From NCBI GenBank assembly GCA_905182175.1, contig CAJJAT010000009.1, forward strand, positions 1 through 64,000: 64,000 bases of DNA, given 5' to 3'. Positions 33,991 to 35,993 of this stretch are shown here, piece by piece. The stretch comes from Flavobacteriales bacterium UBA1494 (lineage in GTDB: Bacteria; Bacteroidota; Bacteroidia; Flavobacteriales_E; Vicingaceae). The number at the start of each line of letters is the position of its first letter. The stretch's first letter is position 1. The position numbers were made by a program, and so were the translations under genes. The notes under the pieces are model-generated. The model had not been told where the DNA came from, searched no databases, and saw nothing but the letters and a program-made list of their open reading frames with translations.

Positions 33991-34053
33991 CATCAACTTC
34001 GCCCAGCTACCCGATTAGGGTTGTGAAATGCTGTTGGATGAATGAAATACTGT

Positions 34054-34126
34054 TGGCTGAGCGGAGTCAATGGTATTCCAAACTTTCATGACTTCGGCTT
34101 CGCAGAGTTTTTGAAAAGCCGCTCAA
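34054..34126. repeat. Palindromic intergenic repeat, left copy
   Basis: Box A tggctgagcggagtc (34054-34068), box B gacttcggcttcgc (34090-34103) and box C cgctca (34120-34125) are laid out as in the copy at 34530. Boxes A and B are imperfect inverted repeats. This copy encodes the last codons and stop of the GIY-YIG frame on the minus strand. Confidence 0.65.
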
Positions 34127-34471
34127 TCTCTGGGAAAAAGGAACTTTCCGAAAAACCACTCAGTCTACTAACATTATTTCTATGACTTGTTTCGTTTAAA
34201 CAGGCTGCAAGTTTAAGGAGCGCCTCAGGCATTTCATTAACCAGCGCTTCTTCCTTTATCCGAGTCCAGCCTTGTACTTGTTTTCTCGGTAAAATGTGGT
34301 ATCAATCCTATCAAATTTTTTGACGTAAATTAGTTGAACGGGCAGTTTTTTCTCAGTATGATTTGCCCCTTCTCCGGTTTGATGCTGAGCGAGTAGCAAT
34401 TCCAACTGTTTTGTGCTGCCAGTGTAATAACAACCGTCACAACACTCTAGTATGTGCATGTAACTATTCAT
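34086..34471 (-). pseudogene. GIY-YIG nuclease family protein with a one-base frameshift
   Basis: From ATG 34471 the frame reads MNSYMHILECCDGCYYTGST, a GIY-YIG domain in the variant form HIL...CYYTGST, then KKLPVQLIYVKKFDRIDTTFYRE. After FYRE the frame closes at 34256. In the next frame it continues in good family sequence (KQVQGWTRIKEEALVNEMPE, then LAACLNE) to a TGA at 34086-34088. One missing A in the run at 34281-34284 explains the break. These short URI-type proteins (about 90-130 residues) are common in Bacteroidota and are presumed DNA endonucleases. The gene lies between two direct copies of a palindromic repeat. A sequencing slip in the A run cannot be excluded, in which case the gene is intact. 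Confidence 0.75.
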
Positions 34472-34529
34472 TCTAACGATAAAACTAATTTTTTTGAAGA
34501 ACGTATAAATTAAGGAGTGCATAACCTGA

Positions 34530-34603
34530 TGGCTGAGCGGAGTCGAAGCCATCCGTTTTTCGGGACTTCGGCTTCGCTCATATCTCGAAAAAAATTCGCT
34601 CAG
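34530..34603. repeat. Palindromic intergenic repeat, right copy
   Basis: Here tgagcggagtcgaagcc (34533-34549) faces gacttcggcttcgctca (34564-34580): 14 of 17 positions pair, with a short loop. A third element cgctcag (34597-34603) closes the unit. It lies 58 bases upstream of the GIY-YIG start codon, in the same orientation as the left copy. Confidence 0.7.
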
Positions 34604-34683
34604 TTCACCAAAAAATTATCAGTTCCTTGTAGTAAACAAAAACACAATTAAATCTATTACTTTGTAAATCTAAATAAACTACT

Positions 34684-35813: not shown

Positions 35814-35993
35814 GGGATTGCCACGTCGGCTTCCGCCTTCTCGCAATGACTTTTTAATTGGTCATTTGCTTAAAAAAGCAACTTTGTTTAACGCTATTGT
35901 CATTGCGAATGCTGTGCAACAGAATGAAGCAATCTGGTAATCAAGGACCGGATTGCTTTACTTTATTCCGTGCAGGCTCAATTTTGGCGATGA
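35814..35993. repeat. Cluster of three related intergenic repeats (gattgc...gcaatgac type)
   Basis: Arm 1 runs from gattgccacgtcggc to tctcgcaatgac (35816-35850). Arm 2 is the inverse, from gtcattgcgaatgc to gaagcaatct (35899-35935). A third, degenerate unit runs from ggattgctttacttt to ttggcgatgac (35949-35993). The arms could form a large cruciform. This gcaatgac/gattgc motif is of the kind scattered between genes in many Bacteroidota; no gene lies here. Confidence 0.6.

Follow-up and report, generated by a model that had tools for sequence, protein, structure and literature searches.

The window analysed here, a 64,000-nucleotide stretch of DNA from Flavobacteriales bacterium UBA1494, carries a small minus-strand gene with a GIY-YIG domain (PF01541, E 1.7e-8; start at 34471) between pyk and an M42 peptidase gene. 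The gene is framed by two copies of a palindromic repeat, and the features of the locus are as follows.

33991..34683: whole insertion, between pyk (end 33990) and the M42 peptidase gene (start 34684); in sister species the two genes are <30 bp apart
34048..34132: left copy of the repeat, decayed, on the downstream side of the gene, with box A at 34054-34068, box B at 34090-34103 and box C at 34120-34125
34086..34283, minus strand: second frame past the frameshift, KQVQGWTRIKEEAL...SAKPKS-stop, with its last codons and stop within the left repeat (translation)
34256..34471, minus strand: first frame, encoding the GIY-YIG domain (MNSYMHIL...YRENKYKAGLG-stop), with Leu in place of the catalytic Arg (translation, Pfam, alignment)
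34524..34615: right copy of the repeat, on the upstream side of the gene, an inverted pair of hairpin cores plus box C (alignment with left copy, single-stranded DNA fold)
34528..34553, minus strand: intact cognate-type hairpin in the right copy, GATGGC-TTCGACTCCGCTCA-GCCATC; its core matches the subfamily's TTCGRCTNCGCTCA
34566..34580, plus strand: CTTCGGCTTCGCTCA, the other core in the right copy, its stem decayed (core found by script)
34597..34602, plus strand: box C (CGCTCA) of the right copy (sequence and alignment)

A first-pass annotation, made from the sequence alone, had described a unit of about 73 bp on both sides of the gene in the same orientation. This is borne out by box A (TGGCTGAGCGGAGTC), of which the window has just two matches, at 34054 and at 34530, both on the plus strand (chance expectation 0.01), and by the alignment of 34048-34132 with 34524-34615, in which the order and orientation of boxes A, B and C are identical. 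The suggestion that boxes A and B can pair also holds, because direct sequence comparison shows box A to be nearly a copy of the reverse complement of box B. Folded as single-stranded DNA, the right copy gives z = -2.9 and, at 34528-34553, forms the clean hairpin GATGGC-TGAGCGGAGTCGAA-GCCATC; the left copy, at z = -1.0, is decayed. A further dispersed-looking palindromic repeat, of the GTCATTGCGAA...GAAGCAATCTGG type, lies behind the M42 peptidase gene at 35817-35970.

The first frame of the gene reaches a stop at 34256-34258. The other frame includes KQVQGWTRIKEEALVNE...LAACLNETSH as well as KQVQGWTRIKEEALVNEMPEALLKLAACLNETSH and ends with SAKPKS-stop at 34086-34088, within the left repeat copy; translation thus confirms the earlier proposal that this copy encodes the C-terminus of the corrected frame. 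The frameshift itself is confirmed by the homologue in genome G045, which has LHQLAACLNETSH at the position matching KQVQGWTRIKEEALVNEMPEALLKLAACLNETSH. In addition, the catalytic Arg of the 'LELRL' motif is Leu in the window copy ('LELLL'), the only such case among 12 aligned homologues. The window copy, previously suspected to be dead from its frameshift, therefore bears two independent lesions and is indeed dead.

Sites lacking the gene were sought in relatives, as the first-pass annotation had advised. The pyk/M42 peptidase spacer, 693 bp in the window, measures <30 bp in two genomes of the same genus (G002 and G003), without repeat or gene, and is likewise short in three more distant relatives; therefore, both the gene and its repeats are absent from the sister site. 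It should be noted that this empty site, a spacer without a hairpin, shows presence and absence of gene plus repeats, not their route of arrival. No target duplication was identified. Direct repeats predominate across the gene, inverted scores being mostly modest and weaker than the direct ones, and framing of the kind known from IS elements or MITEs, with terminal inverted repeats and a short target duplication, was rejected. Free-standing GIY-YIG homing endonucleases, such as the seg type of phage T4, offer another comparison. Like them, the window gene is a small stand-alone GIY-YIG gene that lies between conserved genes and is absent in relatives; unlike them, it is flanked by whole repeats, and its neighbours appear to have no split recognition site.

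A scan of the genome collection with the window's nuclease subfamily gave 80 loci from named genomes, mostly Bacteroidota, together with Ignavibacteria, Calditrichota and one Planctomycetota record. At 75 of these 80 loci, at least one hairpin with the core YTTCGR-n-CTCAR and a paired stem is found within 500 bp of the gene; palindrome and GIY-YIG gene are thus associated in other genomes too. The core, TTCGR-n-CTCA, is mostly TTCGRCTNCGCTCA, and its stem co-varies. Hairpins number 2.7 per kb within 500 bp of the gene and 0.16 per kb at distances above 1.2 kb; the 400 kb of background sequence has 0.005 per kb, about 540 times less than the first figure. The subfamily hairpin is nearby at 12 of 15 window-clade genes, 16 of 94 others and none of 44 genes of a clade associated with tRNA genes. 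Among 216 cases, collected with a 14-nt core (whose constancy is imposed by the search pattern) and no stem required, Watson-Crick pairing reaches 96% at the closing pair and 95, 97, 81 and 77% at the four that follow; with partners shuffled, the same five pairs score 55, 40, 48, 57 and 42%. The stem positions use several pair types and the observed rates lie above the shuffled ones, which indicates that the stem sequence varies while pairing is kept. A looser hairpin search returned other cores too, e.g. TTCGAGAACCTCA.

As to the spread of the subfamily, plasmid and phage homologues are <60% identical, and there is no sign of the subfamily riding on them. One nuclease from a Candidatus Kuenenia MAG (Planctomycetota, L276) matches a Flavobacteriales nuclease at 92% identity over 79 aa, which may reflect either transfer or MAG contamination.

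Framing by direct repeats is not confined to this subfamily. For each small GIY-YIG domain in the window genome and 20 relatives, the 700 bp on one side were compared with the 700 bp on the other, with 600 random sites of the same genomes as background (95th percentile 15, maximum 31). The direct-repeat score exceeded 15 in 44/68 loci of this first set and 31 in 30/68; in a second set, from a class-wide search, the counts were 59/86 and 50/86. For the Bacteroidia combined, a direct repeat above the random 95th percentile is present at 103 of 154 small GIY-YIG genes. Random positions are mostly coding, and other small ORFs from the background stretches are the better control, although 7% of them (5/67) still score above 15; among larger ORFs the count is 3/200. 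UvrC and DnaQ-UvrC genes, which encode GIY-YIG domains too, score at background.

About a third of the small GIY-YIG genes have no direct repeat. Flanking repeats are absent from a GIY-YIG gene on a Bacillota plasmid, where its neighbours are a tRNA1(Val) methyltransferase gene and rsmI, as well as from another on a Legionella plasmid; the framing rule therefore fails for some small GIY-YIG genes. Many copies are frameshifted or contain stops, copy number swings among close relatives, and some of the ORFs, that of the window included, end inside the repeat. At one locus (L145, G117:C48) the GIY-YIG ORF runs through the repeat into an apparent downstream nucleotidyltransferase gene, giving a fused frame of 387 aa. 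Stretches of N of about 100-320 bases lie close to the GIY-YIG genes at L080, L081 and L216.

The relation between nuclease and repeat was assessed by a Mantel test of nuclease identity against flank similarity over 5753 pairs (non-tRNA loci, different genera), which gave rho 0.23, the best of 500 shuffles reaching 0.07. A flank score of at least 18 is found in 20% of the pairs with over 60% nuclease identity and in 0.2-0.4% of those under 40%. A tree of 153 domains, built on few columns and with many open forks, contains one eight-member clade with canonical CGTC REPs at 7 of its 8 loci; two more CGTC loci lie elsewhere in the tree. These REPs (stem of 8-9 bp starting AT, loop of 4-5 nt) number 23 copies at 9 nuclease sites vs none in 400 kb of background. 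Nine CGTC hairpins surround a GIY-YIG gene (direct-repeat score 115) on a Sinorhizobium meliloti pSymB plasmid, and a GIY-YIG gene on a Sphingomonas plasmid has the TTCGACTTCGCTCA core on either side. In a 2013 survey, no dedicated transposase was known for CGTC REPs and no transposase genes were adjacent to them (Di Nocera 2013, PMC3733652). Our literature search found no paper pairing GIY-YIG genes with REPs.

Palindrome cores also occur without such genes. Copies of a related core, TGAGCNNNGTCGAAG, are most numerous in G049 (215) and G029 (113), neither of which has a small GIY-YIG gene by match count; copies are therefore able to persist or spread without the nuclease. Across genomes, the correlation of one core with the GIY-YIG count is modest (rho 0.34), presumably because every nuclease clade has its own repeat. 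In the window genome, the dispersed copies mostly have a different, worn stem, and the window gene thus need not be their partner. For the copy at G000:C8, no dispersed repeat was found over the genome, the repeat being essentially local. Among the part of the loci examined, only a few dispersed cores of G000 lie within terminator loops; core copies were seen within apparent transcription terminator hairpins at L011, L023 and L029.

Cores without GIY-YIG genes, together with RAYT-like genes in 94 of 119 genomes, would suit a passenger role, in which ordinary REPs are spread by RAYT transposases or other means and a dispensable GIY-YIG gene merely collects them. Against this, repeat type tracks nuclease phylogeny (75/80 loci for one core, 7/8 of one clade for CGTC REPs), such repeats are rare at other small ORFs, and a RAYT is unnecessary, given that G049 has no RAYT match despite its 215 cores. 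We regard a passenger role as highly improbable. On the evidence of G049, RAYT was also rejected as the hidden enzyme.

In a sister clade, the repeat is derived from tRNA genes. A tRNA gene lies within 400 bp of 24 of the 73 first-set sites, which include five UvrC or DnaQ controls, none of them near a tRNA, vs 26 of 4000 random positions. Mapped on the tree, the tRNA label requires 10 changes vs 38.6 when shuffled; tRNA isotype requires 19 (when shuffled, 30 on average and at least 26), and subclades follow isotype. Together with the Mantel test, this clustering of label and isotype answers in the affirmative the question of whether repeat type follows nuclease phylogeny. In this clade, part of the tRNA gene and its terminator is duplicated behind the ORF, which can end inside the copy, and within the duplicated fragments the anticodon arm or T arm often holds a perfect palindrome. 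At L216, L177, L169, L215, L219 and L091, a perfect palindrome (e.g. TCCCGATGCATCGGGA, TCCGCCTAAGGCGGA) splits the tRNA gene copies behind the GIY-YIG ORFs.

In the window genus, the unit carried by one tRNA-Asn gene looks intact in G004, is decayed in the window genome and is missing from G001; G005 has a second tRNA 3' end at this gene and no nuclease gene. Tandem arrays occur as well: G110 has ten GIY-YIG copies with identical scores and 457-bp spacing behind a tRNA-Met gene (L165, G110:C9:904500-911500), and other arrays are present in G099, G068, G105, G013 and G012. Both the existence of tandem arrays, in which repeats and genes alternate, and the G005 locus could be read as products of slippage, by which hairpin and gene were duplicated in tandem and the second gene was lost, the nuclease having no role. 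We consider this very unlikely, as it explains neither the specificity of the repeat for a nuclease clade across genera nor the rarity of the pattern at other genes.

Rather, we think it fairly likely that the window locus represents a small selfish element, now dead, of the form repeat-nuclease-repeat (R-G-R), whose nuclease would cut its cognate hairpin and which would spread via its repeats. The proposal builds on the observed R-G-R architecture, co-specificity, hairpin covariation, empty site, tandem arrays and decay, from which we infer recognition, single-strand cutting and movement through R. In such a unit, G would be a single-domain GIY-YIG nuclease of about 100 aa, and R a hairpin repeat specific to the nuclease subfamily; for the window's subfamily, R would consist of the core TTCGR-n-CTCA on a co-varying stem and would usually come as inverted pairs, and in the sister clade tRNA gene fragments would serve as R. 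The nuclease most likely recognises its own hairpin in single-stranded DNA, during replication, repair or uptake, and would then nick or cut it. Repair or recombination via the flanking R could multiply R, duplicate R-G in tandem and occasionally seed R-G-R at a new site. The single-strand step is suggested by hairpin covariation and by analogy to RAYTs and to the Ssn nucleases considered below.

The arrangement is best read as one that may work like REP-RAYT with another enzyme. REPs and REPINs are associated with RAYT tyrosine transposases (Nunvar 2010, PMC2817692; Bertels 2011, PMC3116915; Di Nocera 2013, PMC3733652) and, like the repeats described here, are short extragenic hairpins, often in inverted pairs, that cluster at a dedicated enzyme gene and are dispersed elsewhere. 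Here, however, the enzyme between the repeats is a PF01541 GIY-YIG protein and not an HUH/Y1 one, the repeats flank the gene in direct orientation, and tRNA-fragment variants exist. No GTAG tag at the hairpin foot, a REP-RAYT feature, is conserved among the hairpin contexts listed. Canonical CGTC REPs flank GIY-YIG genes of one clade as well as the S. meliloti pSymB gene, whereas the window hairpin belongs to another family, with core TTCGRCTNCGCTCA and no CGTC, TGTC or CCTC tag. The first-pass annotation had seen the logic of REPs and RAYTs with a GIY-YIG enzyme in their place, and the cognate hairpins at 75/80 loci, the empty site, the match of repeat to phylogeny and the dead copy support it, spread driven by the nuclease being the probable rather than the observed part.

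A second system is closer in its enzyme. Chenal and colleagues are said to have described, in 2025, Ssn proteins of Neisseria as site-specific single-stranded GIY-YIG nucleases with a cognate repeat, NTS. In Neisseria, Ssn and NTS have a role in tuning DNA uptake or recombination. This system shares with ours a single-domain GIY-YIG nuclease and a cognate repeat in many copies; the loci described here differ in their direct-repeat framing, tandem arrays and decay, in the empty site and in the existence of a tRNA-isotype clade. The window-type nucleases are probably near the Ssn nucleases. Nuclease and repeat could also be a pair that serves the host. The enzyme would then be a site-specific single-stranded DNA nuclease, and its hairpins, dispersed as marks over the genome, would tune uptake of DNA or recombination; those close to the gene would simply be a local cluster of sites. 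The co-specificity data fit such a pair, and CGTC-type REPs, a class reported in Neisseriae (Di Nocera 2013, PMC3733652), flank one nuclease clade. However, the many frameshifted or stop-bearing copies, the swings in copy number between close relatives, the tandem arrays and the duplications of tRNA fragments look selfish, and we judge a host-serving pair unlikely.

In Bacteroidota and some other bacteria, small GIY-YIG genes are framed by direct copies of a tRNA gene fragment or of a hairpin repeat of their own, and similar repeats go with related nucleases. This suggests that the enzymes act as partners of short palindromic repeats, some of them so far without a known enzyme, and perhaps spread them. 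More tentatively, it is possible that small GIY-YIG nucleases make up a broad class, each specific for a hairpin or a tRNA, that drives mobile units of 350-700 bp; the class would include the missing dedicated enzyme of CGTC REPs and a clade with isotype-specific tRNA insertion in each subfamily.

CGTC REPs are a widespread superfamily reported to be enzyme-less (PMC3733652), yet here they flank GIY-YIG genes. Because they do so, and because nuclease phylogeny predicts repeat type, the question of a repeat spreader becomes directly testable, and the test needs an enzyme of about 100 aa and an oligonucleotide of about 26 nt. With one hairpin core per clade, these enzymes would offer a natural collection of nucleases that differ in sequence specificity. 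Provided that the units move, few autonomous mobile elements would be smaller, and the tRNA clade would represent a new use of tRNA genes as insertion sites without an integrase.
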